Under the pieces are notes generated by a model. That model searched no databases. It saw nothing but the letters and a program-made list of their open reading frames with translations, and was not told the origin of the DNA. Positions 741 to 16,246 of a stretch of DNA of 20,118 nucleotides are shown one piece after another. How positions within the stretch are numbered: the stretch's first letter is position 1; each line of letters starts with the position of its first letter. Both the position numbers and the translations under genes were made by a program. Source of the stretch: a virus; IMG/VR virus record IMGVR_UViG_3300027833_000270, positions 1-20,118 of that record, one strand, 5' to 3'.

Positions 741-3700
741 TTAAGCCAGATTTCCGATCTTAACTCTTAGAACTCCGCCCGAAAATATCTTAATTACATT
801 ATTTGTTCCATCCATTTGTATTCTATCATTTCCACTATCTGCAGAGATCTGTAGCTGCTCTGAAGTAATAGCATCAGCATCAATATGACTAGCTACAATA
901 GTATCTGCCGCTATATGGTTTGCATTGATTGTTCCTGCTTCTAAAAAGTCTACAGACAGGCTAGGTATGCTACTTGCAGTCGCGATAGTATTTAGATTGC
1001 CTGTGGTACCTATCTCAGGCGTACCGGTTGAGCCATCGACTACACTTATTCCAGAGTTAGAAACTGCAGAGAGAGTCTGTACTCCTGAAGTAATAGTAGT
1101 ATTACCTGCCATGGCAGTAGTAGCCGTAGTACCTATTGCTAGATTAGAAGTACCTGCACCAATAAAAGTACGGATAGCGGCACCATCGCTACAGAATCTT
1201 GTATAGTTGTCACTTCCATTATTAACTCTAAAAGCCATAGCTCCTGATATAGTGTTTTGATTAGTGTAGTTTGACCTAACCAATCTTACGTTTATATCTG
1301 CGGAGGAATTTCTTTTTACAACAGTACTTGCGGTAGCGGCTTCTGTACCTCCACTGTTTGTAATATAAGCCGACCCGTTTGTTAACTGGTTATTGTTTGT
1401 AATATAGTTAGCATTTGTAGCACCTGTGTAACCCAAATTTCCTAGGGTAAGAGCCCTCGTAGCAAAAGCTGTAACATGTCCATTTCCATTTACAGTAACA
1501 TCGCTTATTACGTTAGCACCTGTTAATGCGGCTCCCATATCTACGCCTTCCTGAGGGTGGACATAGTTGTTTGCACCATCTGCTACATTCAGTAGCGTTC
1601 TTGCGGCGGCTGCTGTATAAGAACGACCGTAAGTATCACTACCATTAGTACCCGTAAACATTCCCATTCCGCTTGCATTGCCTGAAGTAGAAAAAGTTCC
1701 TGTTCCGTTGTAATAAACTCCAAATATATAGCCGTTGGCCTGTCTTCTAACAACCGTATTAGCAGTTGCTCCTGTATCTATCGTATAAGGAAAGCTGTAG
1801 TTATTTGCGCTGGCTGCTACACCGTCTAGCTTATTCTTTAAAATGGTAGTAAAGTTTTGTTGAGTCAAGCCACCTGCTCCTACTGCAATAGCCGAAGTAT
1901 AGTAAGGTGCAGCAGTATTAGTAGCACTTGCAGCTACTCCATCTAACTTATTCTTTAAAGTAGTAGTAAAGTTTTGCTGAGTTAATCCACCTGCTCCGAC
2001 TGCGATAGCCGAAGTATAGTAAGGTGCAGCAGTATTAGTAGCACTTGCTGCTACACCGTCTAGCTTATTCTTTAAAGTAGTAGTAAAGTTTTGTTGAGTT
2101 AAACCGCCTGCTCCGACTGCGATAGCAGAAGTGTAATGAGGAGCTGCAGTATTAGTAGCACCCGTTGCTACTCCATCTAACTTATTCTTTAAAGTAGTAG
2201 TAAAGTTCTTTTGTGTAAGACCTCCATCTCCAACTGCTATAGGAGAAGTATAAGTAGGAGCTGCAGTATTAGTAGCACCCGTTGCTATACCATCCAGTTT
2301 ACTGCTACGAGTAGAAGTAAAGTTGATTTGTGTAAGACCTCCATCTCCAACACTATACTGAGTATTGGGAGTTGTTACCGTATCTGTGGTACCGTCTCCT
2401 CTTCTTAGAGTAATCGTACTGCCACTAATTGTCATGGCATTTGCTTGACTTCCCAGTGCTTGTGCTTGATCTGTCTTAACGTATGCAGAAGGCAATGAAC
2501 CTCCAAATGTGGCGGCATCTCCATCATCAGCATTAGTAATATACCCTGCCCCGTTTGTAAGCTGATCATTATTCGTTACATTTGTAGCTCCTGCTGCTAT
2601 ACCGTTTAGTTTCGTAGCAAAAGTAGAGGTCATTAAACCCGTAGTACTAGCAGTAGCATTTGGGATAGCACCTGTATAGTAAGGTACTGCAGTATTAGTA
2701 GCTCCAGTTGCTACTCCATCTAACTTATTTTTAAGAGTAGTAGTGAAGTTCTTTTGTGTAAGACCTCCATCTCCTACAGCGATAGCAGAAGTGTAATGAG
2801 GAGCTGCAGTATTAGTAGCTCCTGTTGCTATGCCATTAAGTTTAGTATGGTCAGCATTTGTAAAGTCATTAGTAGTAAGACCCCCGTCTCCTACAGCGAT
2901 AGCACCTGTATAGTAAGGTACTGCAGTATTAGTAGCTCCAGTTGCTACTCCATCTAACTTATTTTTAAGAGTAGTAGTGAAGTTCTTTTGTGTAAGACCT
3001 CCATCTCCTACAGCGATAGCAGAAGTGTAATGAGGAGCTGCAGTATTAGTAGCTCCTGTTGCTACACCGTCTAACTTATTCTTTAAAGTGGTAGTAAAGT
3101 TCTTTTGTGTAAGACCTCCGTCACCTACGGCTATAGCACCTGTATAGTAAGGTACCGCAGTATTTGTTGCACCTGCAGAAATTGTATCTAGCTTTGCTCC
3201 GTCAACGGAAAGGTCTCTTCCATCTACAGTTTGAGTACTTGAGAAAGTAATATTGCCAGTCATTTGACCACCTGCTTTCGGCAGTTTAGTAGCAATAGCA
3301 GTAGTAAGTGTAGTATTTAAATCTGCATCATTGTTCAAAGCTGTAGCAATTTCACCTAAAGTGTCTAAACTAGCACTTGCAGTACCTACAAGATCACTAA
3401 TTGCATCGTCTACATATGCTTCGCTAGCAAAACCAACACTACCGCTGAGTTGCGCTGCAGTAATAGTAACACCACTAATAGTGAGATCGGTACCATCCCA
3501 TAAAATAAATTTACTTGCGTTTCCAAAAACCATCTTACCTGCTGTAAGATCTAAAAAGGCACCTTTTTCTGCTCCACTTGGAGCCGCATTTGCATCAGGC
3601 ATTGTATTGCCTTTGATAGTACCTGCAGTAATTGCTCCAATGTTTGCATTAATAGAAGACAAGTTTGCAACATTAATTTTTGTAGCATCAATAGTACCTG

Positions 3701-6700
3701 CAGTTATGTCATCTGCGTTTAAAGCACCTCTTATAACCATGCTAGCAGATGCGGCATGCCAGAACATATACTTATTCGCAGCAGCATTACCTACATAAAA
3801 GTCTCCTGTAGAAGTTAAATGAGCACCAGAACCTGTAAGACTGCCTCCAGCAATTTTTGCAACAGTAGTTCTGTTTCTTGCTTTACCAGTACCAGTACCT
3901 GTATTAGCCGCTGTGAATATACCTCCAAGATTATAAGACTGCCCACTTGTGCCTGCAGTAGTATTCCATTGACCTTGTGTTGTGTTTCCCAGATCTGTAA
4001 TGTAGTACTCTGTTCCTATTACGAAATCCCCTGCGTTTAGCTCTAGAGACGGACCTACACGAATGTCCCGAGTAACAATTGCATCAGAATCTAACATCTT
4101 TGTATTTAGAGTACCGATTGTTGCGACTTCTGCCATTAAAGTTTTAAATGTAGCACTCGAACCCGTAATATCATCTACATCAAGTGTTCCTCTAAACTTC
4201 ATTGTGCCTGCGGACTGGTCCCAGAATAAATACTTATTTGAGGAAACATCTCCTACATACATATCACCATCTTGTTTAAGATTAATACCTGCGCCTGTAA
4301 GTGTAGTACCATTAATAACAGGGGCTGTACCGCCGACAGGAAACACTTTAACTTCACGAGCAATTACAGAGTTTGCATTTAGTACGTCAGTATCTACAAC
4401 ACTAAAAGTACCTATATTTGCTACAACCTGTCCAAATGTTCCACCCGACGAAGTAGTATCAATGTTATCTATCAGTATAGTGTCACTTGCAATTTCTGTT
4501 GTAGTGACAGCATTTTCCGCTATCTCACTTGTAGTAACACCATTTTCTTCTACTATATCTCCAGCAGGTTTAAGAACAGCATCAATCTTTGCATAGCTCT
4601 CGGCAAGAACTAATCCGCTAGAGGTATTATAAACTCGTGCAATAATAAAATCATTAGCATAATCTATGCGAATATTTGGAACAAAACCTTGTACACCACT
4701 AAAAGAACTAAAGTTATTTGTTACGTAAAGAAGCGTATCACTCACTACAGCAGCAACTTTATATCCTTCTGTTGAACCTAGCTTTAAGTTATCTCCGTCT
4801 TTAATCTGAGTTAAAAAGGCTGTTCCAGAACCTGTAACTTTAGTAGTACCTACAGCTTTACTAAAAGTACCTGTTAAAGCCGAGCCGTATTTATTTGTAG
4901 TATTTCCAGATCCAGCATCGTACCAAAAACCATTGCTAAAAGCGGGTCTATGGTATTTAATAAGTTTTAGTCTGTCTGTACTGTCACTAGCATCTAAAAG
5001 AATATACGCATGTTCTCTTATAAACTCTCCTTCTGTGGCTCTATCGCTTTCGCTCCAACTTATTATAGGCAGAGTAGTACAGCTCTGCTGCCAAGCGGCA
5101 GATGAAGTACTAGTATTTGTTATAGATTTAGATATCCCGCTAGGGCTTTTTGCTGTATAAGCATACCTTTTGAAAGTAAACGCATCAGACTGTATTCCGA
5201 AACCAACACTAGTAGTACCCGTATAAGGCACGCCTTCTGGCATACGAGGAATATTTTCTTTATATTTATCACTTACTCTTACCTCTGTTACTAAGGCTTT
5301 TGAAACATTCTGCAGTATATTAACTACCTTTACAGCTATTTGGTAGGTTCCGTCAGTTACCCCTTCGATAACATAAGAAGTTTGATTACTGCTTTTAATT
5401 GTTATAGGGCTTTCTATCTCTGGAAAATTATGAGTTATTTCATAACCTGCTATATGCTCATAATTACCGAGTGTTCCTTCTTCTGCTCCAGTTGTTGCAT
5501 CTACTGCTGTGCCTACAGCTAAAGGCGGAGTCCACTGTATTGTTAATTCTTCTCCTATTTTCTCAGGATTCATCATACTAGTAGCATACACATCTGTTAC
5601 CGGAGGCACTACATCATTATGCCTAACGGCAGGGTATACACTATCTGCTATATAAGTGGTAAAATCTTCATCTACTGCTGAGAACTTTTCATCATAGTGC
5701 TCAACCGCAGTAATACTAAATTCATTTTTAGACCCTTGAGAAATAGCTAATACTTTGTACTCTTTTGCAGAGCCTAAAACGGTTTGACCTCCTGCTGTTT
5801 CTGTAAGTACCCATATACTCTCTGCAGGAGGAATTGCTGAAAAAGCTGTAGTTACAGTTAAAGTATCTACACTACTTCCGCTAAGAGAGGCCGTTACATC
5901 CTGTGTTTCCACGCGAGTAGTTTCTGACCAGCTTAACACCAAGGCTTCAGTACCGGTTGCAGTTGCTTTAGCATTTAGAGCTTTTGTCTCGGTATCAATA
6001 TTTTGAAGAGTATAAGTACCGTTATTATTAGAATCAATAAATGCCTGTTTTACTAAGTCTCCTTTCTTATAGTCTACGCCGGAGATAGTTACATCTTCTG
6101 TTGCAAAGGCACCTGGCTCAACAAACATTACAGAAAGCTTATAAGTACTTCCCGATATTAAATTAGTCGTACTATCTAAAGGGATGGAGGTAGTACTGCG
6201 AGCTGTTCCTGAGTTTGAAACTCTTCCTCCTATACGAACTGCATATCTATCTGCATCCTGTATATTTACAATATCTCCTGGCATAAGAAAAGTAGCATTT
6301 AAAGCAGTCGAAAAACTAACAACCTCTCTCTGATTAGCCGCAGTCCATAGCTTCCATCGACCGTATCTTAAAGCTTGTCCTTCACTTGTTGCTCCCATTG
6401 CCATTGCACTTTGAGAAATAATTGTGCCAGTTTTAGCAATATTAAATCTATCTTCTACAATAAGAGGAGACGCTTTATAATTGGCCTCAGGATCTATCCA
6501 AGTAACGACACACTGATTAATTCGTGTCTTGCTTCCTGTACCTTCATAAGCAAACTTACCTTCTATTACATTAGCTTTGGTAAAATTATAAACAGGACCA
6601 GAAGGTGCGTCTATAACAGGAACAACTTGTCCATCAATGTAGTAAAGCATGCTACGGAACACCGTAGCAATATCTTTCAGAACTTTATATGCGTCAGCAG

Positions 6701-8498
6701 CTTTAGTAAAGTATAAATTAGCGGTAAAGCGAGGCTCTAGACCTCCTTTTCCATCGTCAACGAGGGCGTCACAATACCTTGAGATTCTATATAAAGCATA
6801 TTTATCAATATCAGTATCTTTTAGAAAGTCTCCTAATCCATAGCGATTATTTGTAAGTATATCATAAAATACCCAAGCAGGGTTATTTGTATAAAGTTTT
6901 TCCGAGGCAAAAGCACCGTCCCAGTCTTGGTAAGAAGTAGTAGTAGCACCGGTAGTAACATTACGATTATAAGTAGCAACTCCATCACTCGTCTGCTCTC
7001 TTGTAATATAGTTGGAAGGAACAGATACTTTTAGACCTCTAGCATGGTAGGAGCGTGTAGGCATGCCTTGAAACTTTTTTGTATCAAAAGTTACTTTACC
7101 GAGTGCAGTAAAAGGGTGTGTTAATATATCTTTAATAACACACGTTGTATTTGTTAAAGAAGCCGAAGTAACTTGCGTCCAGTTAGATCCTTTTTCAGTT
7201 TGAGTTTTATATGCATCTCCTTGGTGGTCAGTTATTCTTTCAACTTGTATTTTAAAGTCAGAAAAAGGCCTAAACGCTGTTAAGTCTACTGTTTCAACAA
7301 AAGTAACTGCGTTTTTATGTATTCCCTGATGAACTAACGGATGCTTTAAAACTTGGTAAGCTTCAAAAGAGCTTTCTCCAGGTTTTTTAATTGCTATCAT
7401 GGTTCTATATTGAGTAAAAGTGCCTCTATCACTTCCTTCACCATTTACTGCATAATGTCCGCTTGGATAAGCAATAGTAAAACGGGCTTCATCTACTTCT
7501 TGCAATTGGCTAGCAGTTAGCTTGAAACCAGCGTTTGAACTTCCTATCAAAACTTTAGGGGCATCTCCCGTGCTTGAATTATAGGTACTACTTATCTGTA
7601 AAGTGCCTCCTGCACTCGGAGAATTACTTATAGAAGTAGATCCGTGTCCTCCTCGGCCACTAAAGGGAGTTTGAGCGAGCGTACCTACCCTAAACTGAGT
7701 GGTTACTCCCTCATGGTTAGTTGTTTTTGTTTGTGTTATAGGGTCGAGTTTCTTAACTATGGCTCCTGTAACGTCAAATCTAAGGCTTAATACAGGATAC
7801 GCAGCAGGGTTGCCTGACCATGCTGACTCCAAAATAACAGTAGTTCCTGAAATAGATGAAATTTTAGCTATTTTGTCTACTTCTAGCCAGTAGCTACCAT
7901 CAGGAACCCATAATCCTGAAGGGCCTGCGGCGCCTCCGGGAACAAACTCAGCCACAGAACCACTAGTTCTTTTAGTTATCCAACCCTCTCCAAAAGCACC
8001 ATCTCCTACTCCTCCAGCTTCCATAAGCCCTAGTCTTGCAGGAACATGAGTGTCTACATCCTCAGGAGTAGAAATCATACTATCAGTAAAGAAGGCAGAC
8101 CCGTCAGTAGTCAGAGTAGCAGTAATAGCATAGTTATCAGTGCCTGCAGATCCGTTTGAGGCTGTTACCTGTTTTGTTCCGTGCGCAGCTCGTACAATTA
8201 AATACTTATCTCCTGTTTCTGACTGTATAATTGGATTTGCTCCCGCTCCCGTAATAACAGCAGAGGTAGAGCCGTTTGTTAAAGTGACTCTGGCAGCGCT
8301 TTGACTATAGTAATTACCAGTCTCTGAGAGAGGAACGGCCCTATCGTCGTTTAGATAAACAGAAGCCGCTCCATCAACAAGTCCATAAATAGGCCCTTCA
8401 GATATAAGATCTGTTATTGATATTGTCTGTCTATCTAGTGCTAAATGGCTAAAATCTAGATCGAGGGAATCTATGTTAAATCCTGGAATAAGGTTCAT
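741..8498 (-). CDS. J: gpJ-like central tail tip / host-specificity protein, very large (2585 aa)
   Basis: This is the lambda J position and type: the central tip protein that closes the tail and meets the receptor. The N-terminus has the family signature 'ITDLISEGPIYGLVDGAASV' at about residues 27-46. Around residues 650-780 lies a tail-3-like region with 'TRINQCVVTWIDPEANY' and 'LRYGRWKLW'. An FN3-like domain spans about 960-1076. Residues about 1440-1640 hold repeated 'G..YVG...NKY.FW....G' display modules and a Gly/Thr-rich module at about 1489-1546. A 39-residue repeat array covers about 1760-2235. The end, 'IQMDGTNNVIKIFSGGVLRV', is a common tip-protein C-terminus. At 2585 aa it is more than twice lambda gpJ (1132 aa). 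GGAG lies just before the ATG. The J call rests on family and synteny; which C-terminal part binds the host is unknown. Confidence 0.9.
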   Translation of the reverse strand: MNLIPGFNIDSLDLDFSHLALDRQTISITDLISEGPIYGLVDGAASVYLNDDRAVPLSETGNYYSQSAARVTLTNGSTSAVITGAGANPIIQSETGDKYLIVRAAHGTKQVTASNGSAGTDNYAITATLTTDGSAFFTDSMISTPEDVDTHVPARLGLMEAGGVGDGAFGEGWITKRTSGSVAEFVPGGAAGPSGLWVPDGSYWLEVDKIAKISSISGTTVILESAWSGNPAAYPVLSLRFDVTGAIVKKLDPITQTKTTNHEGVTTQFRVGTLAQTPFSGRGGHGSTSISNSPSAGGTLQISSTYNSSTGDAPKVLIGSSNAGFKLTASQLQEVDEARFTIAYPSGHYAVNGEGSDRGTFTQYRTMIAIKKPGESSFEAYQVLKHPLVHQGIHKNAVTFVETVDLTAFRPFSDFKIQVERITDHQGDAYKTQTEKGSNWTQVTSASLTNTTCVIKDILTHPFTALGKVTFDTKKFQGMPTRSYHARGLKVSVPSNYITREQTSDGVATYNRNVTTGATTTSYQDWDGAFASEKLYTNNPAWVFYDILTNNRYGLGDFLKDTDIDKYALYRISRYCDALVDDGKGGLEPRFTANLYFTKAADAYKVLKDIATVFRSMLYYIDGQVVPVIDAPSGPVYNFTKANVIEGKFAYEGTGSKTRINQCVVTWIDPEANYKASPLIVEDRFNIAKTGTIISQSAMAMGATSEGQALRYGRWKLWTAANQREVVSFSTALNATFLMPGDIVNIQDADRYAVRIGGRVSNSGTARSTTSIPLDSTTNLISGSTYKLSVMFVEPGAFATEDVTISGVDYKKGDLVKQAFIDSNNNGTYTLQNIDTETKALNAKATATGTEALVLSWSETTRVETQDVTASLSGSSVDTLTVTTAFSAIPPAESIWVLTETAGGQTVLGSAKEYKVLAISQGSKNEFSITAVEHYDEKFSAVDEDFTTYIADSVYPAVRHNDVVPPVTDVYATSMMNPEKIGEELTIQWTPPLAVGTAVDATTGAEEGTLGNYEHIAGYEITHNFPEIESPITIKSSNQTSYVIEGVTDGTYQIAVKVVNILQNVSKALVTEVRVSDKYKENIPRMPEGVPYTGTTSVGFGIQSDAFTFKRYAYTAKSPSGISKSITNTSTSSAAWQQSCTTLPIISWSESDRATEGEFIREHAYILLDASDSTDRLKLIKYHRPAFSNGFWYDAGSGNTTNKYGSALTGTFSKAVGTTKVTGSGTAFLTQIKDGDNLKLGSTEGYKVAAVVSDTLLYVTNNFSSFSGVQGFVPNIRIDYANDFIIARVYNTSSGLVLAESYAKIDAVLKPAGDIVEENGVTTSEIAENAVTTTEIASDTILIDNIDTTSSGGTFGQVVANIGTFSVVDTDVLNANSVIAREVKVFPVGGTAPVINGTTLTGAGINLKQDGDMYVGDVSSNKYLFWDQSAGTMKFRGTLDVDDITGSSATFKTLMAEVATIGTLNTKMLDSDAIVTRDIRVGPSLELNAGDFVIGTEYYITDLGNTTQGQWNTTAGTSGQSYNLGGIFTAANTGTGTGKARNRTTVAKIAGGSLTGSGAHLTSTGDFYVGNAAANKYMFWHAASASMVIRGALNADDITAGTIDATKINVANLSSINANIGAITAGTIKGNTMPDANAAPSGAEKGAFLDLTAGKMVFGNASKFILWDGTDLTISGVTITAAQLSGSVGFASEAYVDDAISDLVGTASASLDTLGEIATALNNDADLNTTLTTAIATKLPKAGGQMTGNITFSSTQTVDGRDLSVDGAKLDTISAGATNTAVPYYTGAIAVGDGGLTQKNFTTTLKNKLDGVATGATNTAAPHYTSAIAVGDGGLTQKNFTTTLKNKLDGVATGATNTAVPYYTGAIAVGDGGLTTNDFTNADHTKLNGIATGATNTAAPHYTSAIAVGDGGLTQKNFTTTLKNKLDGVATGATNTAVPYYTGAIPNATASTTGLMTSTFATKLNGIAAGATNVTNNDQLTNGAGYITNADDGDAATFGGSLPSAYVKTDQAQALGSQANAMTISGSTITLRRGDGTTDTVTTPNTQYSVGDGGLTQINFTSTRSSKLDGIATGATNTAAPTYTSPIAVGDGGLTQKNFTTTLKNKLDGVATGATNTAAPHYTSAIAVGAGGLTQQNFTTTLKNKLDGVAASATNTAAPYYTSAIAVGAGGLTQQNFTTTLKNKLDGVAASATNTAAPYYTSAIAVGAGGLTQQNFTTILKNKLDGVAASANNYSFPYTIDTGATANTVVRRQANGYIFGVYYNGTGTFSTSGNASGMGMFTGTNGSDTYGRSYTAAAARTLLNVADGANNYVHPQEGVDMGAALTGANVISDVTVNGNGHVTAFATRALTLGNLGYTGATNANYITNNNQLTNGSAYITNSGGTEAATASTVVKRNSSADINVRLVRSNYTNQNTISGAMAFRVNNGSDNYTRFCSDGAAIRTFIGAGTSNLAIGTTATTAMAGNTTITSGVQTLSAVSNSGISVVDGSTGTPEIGTTGNLNTIATASSIPSLSVDFLEAGTINANHIAADTIVASHIDADAITSEQLQISADSGNDRIQMDGTNNVIKIFSGGVLRVKIGNLA
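1793..2360 (-). repeat. Coding tandem repeat block A, five 117-bp units inside the J-like gene
   Basis: The anchor 'ttattcttta' or its degenerate form recurs at 1831, 1948, 2065, 2182 and 2299, exactly 117 bp apart. Each unit encodes 39 residues of the type 'IAVG.GGLTQ.NFTTTLKNK' followed by 'LDGVA..ATNTAAP'. The unit at 2299 is the most divergent. Neighbouring units differ mainly by silent changes; for example, the units at 1948 and 2065 encode the same protein with different Leu, Asp and Gly codons. This suggests an older, protein-selected array. Confidence 0.92.
2575..3205 (-). repeat. Coding tandem repeat block B, six 117-bp units inside the J-like gene
   Basis: Anchors equivalent to those of block A lie at about 2608, 2725, 2842, 2959, 3076 and 3193, again 117 bp apart. 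The end units and the one at 2842 are divergent ('TKLNGIATGATN' types). A perfect 167-bp direct repeat (2664-2830 and 2898-3064, offset 234 bp) shows that two units were copied together recently or homogenised. Blocks A and B are separated by about 215 bp of non-repeat fibre sequence. Confidence 0.92.
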
Positions 8499-14500: not shown

Positions 14501-15405
14501 ACTTGCTTAAGTAAGCCGCCTGCAAATAAAGCTACTGCTCCCGTTAGTGCCATCATATTATTAGCTAGAAAACTTGCTATAGGGCCTATAACGTCTGCAA
14601 CGCCCGTTTTAATTTTATTTAGTAAGTCGTCAAAAGCTTTTGCAAACTGATTCAAAGAATGAGCGGTAGGATCCATCATTTTTTCCATGGCACCAAACTT
14701 ACGTTCCGCTTGGGCTAATACTTCATTTGCTACTGCTTGGCTCCTTTCGAATTCATTTAGCTCATCTTTAGACTTACCAATTTCTTGACCATACTTGCGA
14801 GTAGCATTTTCCAAACGAAGTATAATACCTAATTCATCGAGTAGTTCAGGCTCTGCTTTTGTAACACCACGTATTAATCTATCGAAAGAATCGCCTAAAT
14901 CTCTTCCTAAAGCAAGAGACGCATTCTTTGCCGCTGCACCCAATCTATTTAGCTGATCAGGGCTTATACCAGAAGCAGATCCAATTGCGGCTGCTTTTGC
15001 TGCTTCTGCATATTTTAGCTGTCCATTAGTGGCCTCTACTACAGAATTAGTTATTGTCTTGTAGGCCACACCCGTTACTGCGCCTAAAGCTTTTTGACCT
15101 TCGAGTAGGTTTTTGAAATCCATTGCACCTTTTAAGAAGTTAAAAGCTGCTGAAACGGCAAAAGCAGAAGCTGCCAGAGTTGCATAAACCCCTACCAGCC
15201 CTCCTGCTCCTTGCGCCATTTTAGAAAAGTTTTTTGTGCCTCCAGAAGAAGCTTGGGCAGCTCCTTTAATATTACGATCCACAGTGCGAGCAGAGTTACC
15301 CAGTTTGTCAAGGTTTTTAGCGGTTTTTTTCGACTCTACTCCGAGCTTTTTGGTACCACCCTTATCATCAACTTTTACATCAAGAATAATTTTATTTTTT
15401 GCCAT
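11566..15405 (-). CDS. H: Tail tape measure protein
   Basis: This is the largest alpha-helical protein here (1279 aa), placed directly after the chaperone pair as in lambda H. It has a Lys-rich N-terminus, hydrophobic segments at about residues 68-92, 271-300 and 465-500, and long charged helical or coiled-coil stretches between about 640 and 1085. A lambda-type tape-measure C-terminal motif lies at about 1088-1148, 'FDGIASSMSAAFTSIVTGTA' followed by a Met/Ile-rich helix. The end is Gly-rich. It sets tail length and probably enters the cell envelope with the DNA. Using the usual 0.15 nm per residue, the tail would be about 190 nm, if the protein is not shortened. No peptidase or transglycosylase motif is visible. 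The start is fixed by the TAATG overlap with the T frame, although only a weak AAAGG lies 4 nt before it. Confidence 0.93.
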   Translation of the reverse strand: MAKNKIILDVKVDDKGGTKKLGVESKKTAKNLDKLGNSARTVDRNIKGAAQASSGGTKNFSKMAQGAGGLVGVYATLAASAFAVSAAFNFLKGAMDFKNLLEGQKALGAVTGVAYKTITNSVVEATNGQLKYAEAAKAAAIGSASGISPDQLNRLGAAAKNASLALGRDLGDSFDRLIRGVTKAEPELLDELGIILRLENATRKYGQEIGKSKDELNEFERSQAVANEVLAQAERKFGAMEKMMDPTAHSLNQFAKAFDDLLNKIKTGVADVIGPIASFLANNMMALTGAVALFAGGLLKQVLPSMSAWKESSQATAKQVGRDQQAVQLRLARTQKSYEKLKLARMNDASIAKKAGAKIASEVPGGTKSGQGGLDFLKGGTDSKRSQRAADKALLHAENQLKKSAKKRTGLLKNMNAQQVADLRKSYNIRAGIHKKGMADFAFQMKKGGLAIKSFKLQLTSMASTAKVAFAGLAGAAATAGAVIGKAFFWISMLSIAYDGMKMIKEYFYPMSEETKKLEKRTEELTSKYKTLGEELGRTVDVMKDYSMLNGSDMIQTRGKAVGSLGLTSMIKEINEAIEMYPDRMIPDEMFERMIKTADAAGELDVGFKGLSASLNSGTKITDEQRLSMVNLGNDLQNVGITLDRLPSKIAAMNTQLTKLTGTIKKPFASELQSSLAAVIASQTVALSARGIELGKEAAKLEEFEKKHNIDRDGKGLKIGQIESDLPSVTGEIQMVDVFAKPSKEILDIHSRSVEQLNLQNSALGDLSKRLETNKFFTEALKENQDEMTRLSNEQVTAQTEAAAMRTNGITIEDKIKNVQAQGLILSKSANDEQQALLLLKSQEVSLTDENGKAREDLIDTEITTLAQVKAQIIEGEKKLQQANREIELGEENNSIKIVELNQQKVINEQIRKRLALTTAIFRTSLALKNIQAGGTGLFGQARGQAADKAFGTNLNAKRSQAEQDVLDTQKIVDAEKAKEGTPGYDPMNAFNAQKANQGATNRLASLNQEIELYKKRGELVLLNAKGETEALQLKVQSISMNPAMTAFNVQMNELKSRGVELTITEQGLLYEEIKAQTILAKMAENKQALFDGIASSMSAAFTSIVTGTASAKEAFKSMAISILSQITQMIAQMMIMRILMSAFGMGAPTDAGMTDFSSGYNVAAIARTGGVFSEGKKTQGYATGGVARGSTSGYPATLHGTEAVVPLPNGKAIPVDMKESGATNNNIVVNISTDGQSSKEGSSGPDMDKLGAAVASAVQTELHNQKRSGGILNPYGVA

Positions 15406-15830
15406 TAGCCTTTCACATTATGGGTGAAATTCTTTCCACCGCCCGCAGAACGTCTTTGTTCTGCCTTTTTCTGCTTTTCTGCCTTATCTACTCTATGTGC
15501 TACTAGTATCCCTTCCCACATTTTCATTAGATAAAGCATGTGTCTAGGTTCTTCTATGTTATAAAGGTTGAATAGGTACTCTATATTGCCCCAGTTCTTA
15601 CCCATGTAAGAGCCGGACATACCATCCCAAATATCCTCAAGAAATCCAAATATAAAAAATGCCACTTGGACATCAGAAGGAAGATCTGAAGTCTCGAGCG
15701 GCATCTTATCGGGATCGGGCTCTTCACCCAACTGATCACAGATAAGCAAGTACTTATCTAAATCAATCTGACCTGATTGCTTTACATATTTCTCAAGCAG
15801 AACCCGTATTGCGTCTACTTGTTCCCAGTA
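15405..15830 (-). CDS. T: Tail assembly chaperone T domain, made only as a -1 frameshift extension of the G-like protein
   Basis: Read in the -1 frame from TAC at 15828-15830, this frame gives 141 residues starting YWEQVDAIRVLLEKYV and ending 'GGGKNFTHNVKG'. There is no in-frame ATG near its start. A TTG at 15747-15749 has no Shine-Dalgarno element and would waste 27 upstream codons that look coding. In the -1 frame, a TGA (15837-15839) lies just before the slippery site, so the frame can only be entered at that site. The expected fusion is 139 residues of G plus 141 of T, 280 aa in all. In lambda, G-T binds the tape measure through its T part and recruits tube subunits. The middle has 'DIWDGMSGSYMGKNW' and the tail is Lys/Arg-rich. 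The stop overlaps the tape-measure ATG (TAATG). Confidence 0.88.
   Translation of the reverse strand, partial: YWEQVDAIRVLLEKYVKQSGQIDLDKYLLICDQLGEEPDPDKMPLETSDLPSDVQVAFFIFGFLEDIWDGMSGSYMGKNWGNIEYLFNLYNIEEPRHMLYLMKMWEGILVAHRVDKAEKQKKAEQRRSAGGGKNFTHNVKG
15794..15821 (-). promoter_or_regulatory. Predicted frameshift-stimulating hairpin
   Basis: On the minus-strand RNA, CAAGUAGA (15814-15821) pairs with UCUGCUUG (15794-15801) as eight pairs including one G-U, around a 12-nt loop. The stem begins 8 nt after the slippery heptamer, within the spacing usual for stimulators of -1 frameshifting. The G-frame stop codon lies inside the stem. I found it by eye; no folding energy was calculated. Confidence 0.6.
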
Positions 15831-16246
15831 AAATTTTCAAGATCACTCACGGTTTCAGTAACCCAAGTATCAAAGTCACCTGCATTTCTCATAAGTAGCT
15901 CTGAGTTATCTTGTGTAAACGGGAGTTCATCATCAGGGTCAAGAGCAGAAACATCTACCAATAGAAGCTCTTCTAGGTACTTATATTTTAAGCCTGACCA
16001 TCCTTTGATTACTGCTTTACAATACTCTACTAAGAATCTTTCTTCATCTAACTCTTCTTCTGGCTGACGAGTTTTTTTATTAAACTTTGTTGTAACACAT
16101 CTTTTACGTAATTTTACTAGCTCTTCTCGGGCTAGGTAGCAAAGATCTATTGTCATACCTATATGACCTGGAAAGTCAATTGTTACGGTTTTACTAGGAG
16201 TCATAAGACTCGCAAGTGATACTACTGGTTTGGTTGTGTCGATCAT
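15815..16246 (-). CDS. G: Tail assembly chaperone G
   Basis: This 143-aa soluble protein lies between the tail tube and tape-measure genes, where long-tailed phages of Gram-negative hosts encode the G/G-T chaperone pair. It starts MIDTTKPVVSLASLMTPSKT, has a helical middle rich in Glu, Lys and Arg ('LAREELVKLRKRCV', 'EEERF'-like stretches and 'IKGWSGLKYKYLEELL') and ends 'SDLENFTGNK'. Sequence similarity to lambda gpG is not obvious to me. The call rests on position, size and the frameshift signal at its last codons. AAGGA lies 6 nt before the ATG. The gene follows its own promoter (16324-16352) and a leader hairpin. Most ribosomes should end at TAG 15815-15817 and a minority should shift to make G-T. 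Confidence 0.87.
   Translation of the reverse strand: MIDTTKPVVSLASLMTPSKTVTIDFPGHIGMTIDLCYLAREELVKLRKRCVTTKFNKKTRQPEEELDEERFLVEYCKAVIKGWSGLKYKYLEELLLVDVSALDPDDELPFTQDNSELLMRNAGDFDTWVTETVSDLENFTGNK
15830..15836 (-). promoter_or_regulatory. Slippery heptamer AAATTTT for -1 programmed frameshifting
   Basis: In the G frame the codons read GAA AAT TTT ACT, so A AAT TTT fits the X XXY YYZ rule. After a -1 slip the codons become AAA TTT TAC TGG and continue into the T frame. The two frames overlap only between the -1 frame TGA at 15837-15839 and the G-frame TAG at 15815-15817. A heptamer of the right phase within such a short window is strong support. Confidence 0.88.

Follow-up and report, generated by a model that had tools for sequence, protein, structure and literature searches.

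A probable programmed -1 frameshift site joining tail assembly chaperone genes G and T in an uncultivated phage, and its putative +1 counterpart in T5-like relatives

The DNA analysed here, hereafter the window, comprises 20,118 bases and is an IMG/VR record of an uncultivated phage. In its tail gene cluster, the 3′ end of gene G is, with a probability of roughly 95%, a programmed -1 ribosomal frameshift site of the lambda G/G-T type, at which part of the ribosomes would pass into the overlapping T frame. An initial annotation, made from the letters alone, had read the locus in this way, and its reading is supported by the conservation of the site and of the frame relation, by the startless T part and by the PHROG families of the two proteins.

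Organization of the G/T locus

The features of the locus are the following:

15815..16246, minus strand: gene G, tail assembly chaperone, zero-frame product of 143 aa (ORF; PHROG 313)
15830..15836, minus strand: slippery heptamer A_AAT_TTT, the putative -1 site (read directly; conserved among the -1 loci)
15815..15836, minus strand: 22-nt overlap confining the shift, limited by TGA 15839-15837 and TAG 15817-15815
15405..15830, minus strand: T part of 141 aa, predicted to be reached only via the -1 shift (-1 frame; PHROG 3914)
15794..15821, minus strand: stem-loop, putative stimulator, 8 nt past the heptamer (covariation; synonymous shuffles)

The ORF reading of the window places the tail genes, including G and T, on the minus strand, which the initial annotation had implied without stating it. 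In minus-strand order they encode head completion, tail completion, tail terminator and major tail proteins, G, T, the tape measure and lambda-like tail-tip proteins. Gene G ends in GAA AAT TTT ACT GGG AAC AAG TAG, with its stop codon TAG (15817-15815) 12 nt past the heptamer. The -1 frame is closed by the TGA at 15839-15837, directly 5′ of the heptamer, and opens at the heptamer itself; from 15836 it continues to a TAA at 15405 that shares bases with the tape-measure ATG (TAATGG), and the slip leads into 141 codons of it. The predicted products are G, of 143 aa, and a G-T fusion of 139+141 = 280 aa with DLENFYWEQVDAIR as the predicted junction peptide. The earliest potential start codon in the T frame is TTG 15749, at approximately the 28th T codon, and it is not accompanied by a Shine-Dalgarno element. 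On re-reading, the G 3′ end, the in-phase AAATTTT and the preceding TGA given in the initial annotation proved correct to the base. Its 141-codon frame reaching the tape-measure start, its two product lengths and the lack of an ATG or Shine-Dalgarno element near the beginning of T were likewise borne out, while the overlap that it had put at about 20 nt measures 22 nt.

Elsewhere in the window, positions 741-8498 (minus strand) encode a protein of 2585 aa in which a motif like AIAVGDGGLTQKNFTTTLKNKLDGVATGATNTA is repeated in tandem many times; from its location and its lambda-like neighbours, it may be a tail-tip/fibre protein.

Identity of the G and T proteins

G matches PHROG 313 (E 2.2e-11) and T matches PHROG 3914 (E 2e-16), both of them tail assembly chaperone families, in agreement with the chaperone identity initially assigned to both ORFs, and the two genes are situated between those of the major tail protein and the tape measure. 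No Pfam match was found for G or for T. A structure model of G (pLDDT 79) was compared with 350,542 PDB chains; the best two matches are YqbN (3klu) and the HK97 tail assembly chaperone (2ob9), both weak and non-significant, with E-values of 0.23 and 1.3 and TM-scores of 0.34-0.44. The fold search with the T model gave no meaningful match.

Conservation of the slippery heptamer

In-phase heptamers of the type X_XXY_YYZ occur at 49 of the 6408 codons of the window's genes, so that the probability of meeting any of them by chance in the five available positions is ~0.04; for A_AAT_TTT it is ~0.002. A chance origin is made untenable by the conservation of the heptamer across related loci. All ~120 related IMG/VR loci with both parts (window excluded) keep T in the -1 frame, retain the heptamer and have the G stop 12 nt past it, with identities that decrease to 59% for G and to 36% for T. 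Because the G-protein search patterns used to collect these loci leave the slip site uncovered, the loci were not selected for the heptamer. Some contigs are present twice in this set, once per search, and its counts therefore refer to loci and not to phages.

The complete set with the -1 layout contains 172 loci, corresponding to 114 distinct sequences; these share kinship, and the counts are of non-independent events. A slippery heptamer is present in 172/172 loci. It is A_AAT_TTT in 104 of the 114 distinct sequences, and the remaining ten, all freshwater, carry the canonical G_GGA_AAC one codon upstream. The A_AAT_TTT sequences invariably use AAT and TTT at the site, codons that elsewhere in the same genes account for 60% (AAT) and 77% (TTT) of the choices, while the preceding Leu codon is free (CTT, TTA, CTA, CTC, CTG or TTG). 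The ten freshwater sequences have AAC TTC or AAC TTT, which would break the A_AAT_TTT heptamer; the codons before their AAC are always [CT]TG GGA, rebuilding G_GGA_AAC, and the Phe codon is free to be TTC or TTT. As judged from these codon choices, the constraint at the site tracks slipperiness rather than amino acids. The initial annotation had proposed an alignment of homologous loci as a check, and across the 114 distinct sequences the heptamer, or its G_GGA_AAC replacement, is conserved together with the -1 frame relation.

One detail of the site counts against the -1 reading: on A_AAT_TTT, the slipped Asn tRNA would be left with a mismatch at the wobble position. A consistent Shine-Dalgarno-like stimulator upstream of the heptamer was not found, GGAG, GAGG or AGGA being present in 7 of 76 distinct upstream 18-mers.

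A covarying stem-loop downstream of the heptamer

In the stem-loop, the arm CAAGTAG (15821-15815), within which the G stop codon lies, pairs with the arm CTGCTTG (15800-15794). In the window clade (57 distinct sequences) 92% of the cells are paired, and double-sided changes are seen in 47 cells. In 500 shuffles, neither this paired percentage nor the number of double changes nor the covariation score was attained even once, and versions with slid arms are paired in only 23-42%. The near-invariance of the sequence CAAGTA at the G stop is accounted for by the stem-loop. A second marine clade (B) uses the same 5′ arm with a nearer partner, a different loop and a shifted register, and shows compensating pairs at one position (GC 13, CG 3, TA 2). 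Synonymous shuffles that preserve the T protein and its codon usage, scored over the first 60 nt, give mean z values of -2.5, -2.7 and -2.2 in three -1 clades and of -1.4 in the freshwater clade; the value of -2.5 for the window clade is the mean of 45 loci, and the window's own sequence alone is weaker (z -0.8). By its predicted pairing and position, the stem-loop is of the usual type of -1 frameshift stimulator. Neither this stem-loop nor the +1 arrangement of T5-like phages described below had been part of the initial annotation.

Proposed mechanism and alternative explanations

A ribosome decoding AAT TTT would meet the hairpin 8 nt downstream and pause, and the Asn and Phe tRNAs could then move back by one base to pair with AAA TTT. 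A minority of the ribosomes would slip into T and produce the 280-aa G-T protein, whereas the majority would terminate at the TAG, which lies within the hairpin, and yield the 143-aa G protein. By analogy with lambda, the tape-measure protein would be coated by many copies of G and few of G-T, and tail-tube subunits would be recruited through the T domain. The occurrence of slippage, its efficiency and its role in tail assembly we infer from the sequence, the role being carried over from lambda via gene order and family membership.

That T is instead a separate gene with its own initiation, whether by termination-reinitiation at a near-cognate codon, from the internal TTG 15749 or from an ATG, appears very improbable. 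The annotations of T5-like relatives do assign T an internal start codon of its own, and some start codons do occur downstream in the T frame, but across the -1 clade the position of the first one is scattered from T codon 11 to T codon 71. A conserved T start codon, which the initial annotation had named among the observations that would speak against a frameshift, was not found in the -1 clade. Furthermore, homology and coding selection reach upstream to the slip site. T codons 8-28, which in most near relatives of the window lie ahead of the first T-frame start, show substitution values of 0.245/0.164/0.386 for the three codon positions of the T frame, a pattern by which the region upstream of the first start evolves as coding sequence, and the residues immediately past the slip are conserved as Y-x-E-Q. 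Independent initiation would also leave both the synonymous constraint on the heptamer and the hairpin unexplained.

Less probable still is a joining of the frames by transcriptional rather than ribosomal slippage, on the A4T4 stretch. The site is indeed a short A/T-rich run, but runs of four are short compared with the known cases (An with n>7, Tn with n>8; PMC3711429), and the GGGAAAC found in the freshwater relatives is a ribosomal heptamer without a long run. The phase of the heptamer and the spacing of the hairpin also suit ribosomal slippage. The programmed -1 ribosomal shift is the preferred explanation of the locus. This kind of frameshift is well known in phage tails, and the locus adds a well-supported case.

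Comparison with lambda and other tail chaperones

The heptamer of lambda is GGGAAAG, which differs from the A_AAT_TTT of the window, and the compact hairpin enclosing the G stop codon likewise distinguishes the window from lambda. Common to both are the gene order tail tube-G-T-tape measure, the short overlap, a heptamer of the X_XXY_YYZ type, the -1 slip near the G 3′ end and a T without its own start. The likeness drawn here is one of layout rather than of close sequence relation. The -1 frameshift in lambda G/G-T was described by Levin 1993 and Xu 2004, as cited in PMC5009743; according to the latter, G and GT are made in a ratio of ~30:1 and both bind the tape measure, with T recruiting the tail-tube subunits. 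The gp17.5/gp17.5* proteins of SPP1 are a functional analogue of G/G-T, with a putative -1 shift before the tape-measure gene (PMC6316719); the SPP1 site, UUUUUUC, is unlike that of the window, and the two systems are compared by function and not by homology.

A +1 arrangement in T5-like phages

Homologous G/T pairs were found by tblastn in ~880-900 phage records, and all inspected records with a full lineage belong to the Demerecviridae. The pair, annotated in phage Slocum as homologues of T5.143 and T5.142, shares ~25-41% identity in G and ~27-37% in T with the window, occupies the same gene position and has its junction at the same Phe. Unlike in the window, T lies in the +1 frame relative to G in every intact T5-like pair, T5 included, and each of these pairs carries TTT_CGT or TTT_CGA (TTT_CGN) at the homologous conserved Phe. 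They amount to 25 distinct sequences, from phages of Escherichia, Salmonella, Klebsiella, Serratia, Providencia and Enterobacter and from several Vibrio phage lineages; left out of this intact set are L217 and L221, which look damaged or are too fragmentary, and L218, which has no detectable G. The window itself does not have this site: its T is in the -1 frame, and the junction reads TTT ACT. Further differences are a terminator between T and the tape-measure gene in the T5-like phages and the lack of a shared -1 hairpin: a shared downstream hairpin was looked for in the +1 clade and not found, the mean synonymous z being ~-1.

In the long ORFs of the T5-like loci, in-phase TTT_CG is found at only 4 of 6862 codons. 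The T-frame stop often lies just 5 nt before the TTT, which leaves no other place for the shift. T codons 8-20 of these phages change by 0.068/0.002/0.245 per codon position and, because of this pattern, are taken to be translated, while most T5-like annotations place the T start downstream of them. A pyrimidine following UUU is recognised as favouring +1 shifts (Schwartz and Curran 1997, as cited in PMC4914553). After a +1 shift at UUU_C the tRNA-Phe would re-pair perfectly on UUC, and since this holds in all T5-like phages, a +1 shift is preferred over a -2 shift, for which tRNA-Phe would need to pair with ACT, CGT, CAT or GGT in several of them. Schwartz and Curran reportedly tested UUU CGU/CGG dicodons in that 1997 work. 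An independent GTG start at the site is present only in the Sugarlandvirus records L126, L211 and L212, and not in T5 or most Vibrio phages. The Sugarland paper describes the chaperone as being without a predicted frameshift signal, like that of T5 (PMC6256483).

In a maximum-likelihood tree of G+T one fully supported branch separates all +1 sequences from the rest, so that a single change of direction suffices; the tree is midpoint-rooted, several +1 rows have long branches, and the polarity of the change is not fixed by it. The T5-like pair is very likely joined by a programmed +1 shift at UUU_CGN, the direction having been reversed once, in either sense, at the same codon and with both the short and the fused product retained. 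Since the tail chaperone of the archaeal myovirus HSTV-2 is reported to use very likely a +1 shift (PMC5009743), a precedent for +1 replacing -1, a +1 shift would not be a new kind of event for a tail chaperone. What is surprising to a specialist is that T5-like phages have the opposite direction, a reversal strongly supported by the sequence comparison.

Two further observations concern individual records. Vibrio phage VspSw_1 (L123, 2340-3113) has an extra 774-nt ORF between its T and tape-measure genes. The 5.9-kb record OR848485.1, labelled Listeria phage LM 4-14-1, contains a G 100% identical to that of the Escherichia T5-like phage used as query, and is possibly a mislabelled or contaminant sequence.

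Putative transcription signals around T and the tape-measure gene

One further feature lies inside T:

15654..15707, minus strand: terminator-shaped hairpin followed by TTTTTT (-25.0 kcal/mol; shuffles; covariation)

In the window clade this hairpin (15707-15654) has a mean synonymous-shuffle z of -3.3 and 36 double-changed cells, compared with 13 in shuffles, a support beyond the constraint of the protein; it is a possible attenuator ahead of the tape-measure gene. T5-like phages (L145 and others) have a strong intrinsic terminator between T and the tape measure, ~40-80 nt past the T stop, which in T5 reads GGCTCTGGG...CCCAGAGCCTTTTTT and which is annotated in phages PR1 and Slocum. The freshwater relatives L156, L158, L165 and L170 have a near-consensus promoter, TTGACA...TATAAT, ~35-70 nt past the T stop and ahead of the tape-measure gene. 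Together, the in-T hairpin, the T5-like terminator and the freshwater promoter suggest that transcription of the tape-measure gene is controlled separately.

Upstream of G, between the major tail gene and G, the window contains, within 16352-16278 (minus strand), a near-consensus promoter, TTGACA-17-TATACT (11/12), with a 14-pair hairpin (16309-16278) directly 3′ of it.

Implications

Across several clades, the window and its relatives provide a clean natural data set on a single -1 site, comprising a frozen heptamer, a heptamer swap and a covarying hairpin. The analysis further suggests that T5-like genomes would carry an unannotated G-T fusion, contrary to the statement in PMC6256483. The comparison with T5-like phages opens the evolution of frameshift direction to direct tests in a laboratory model phage.
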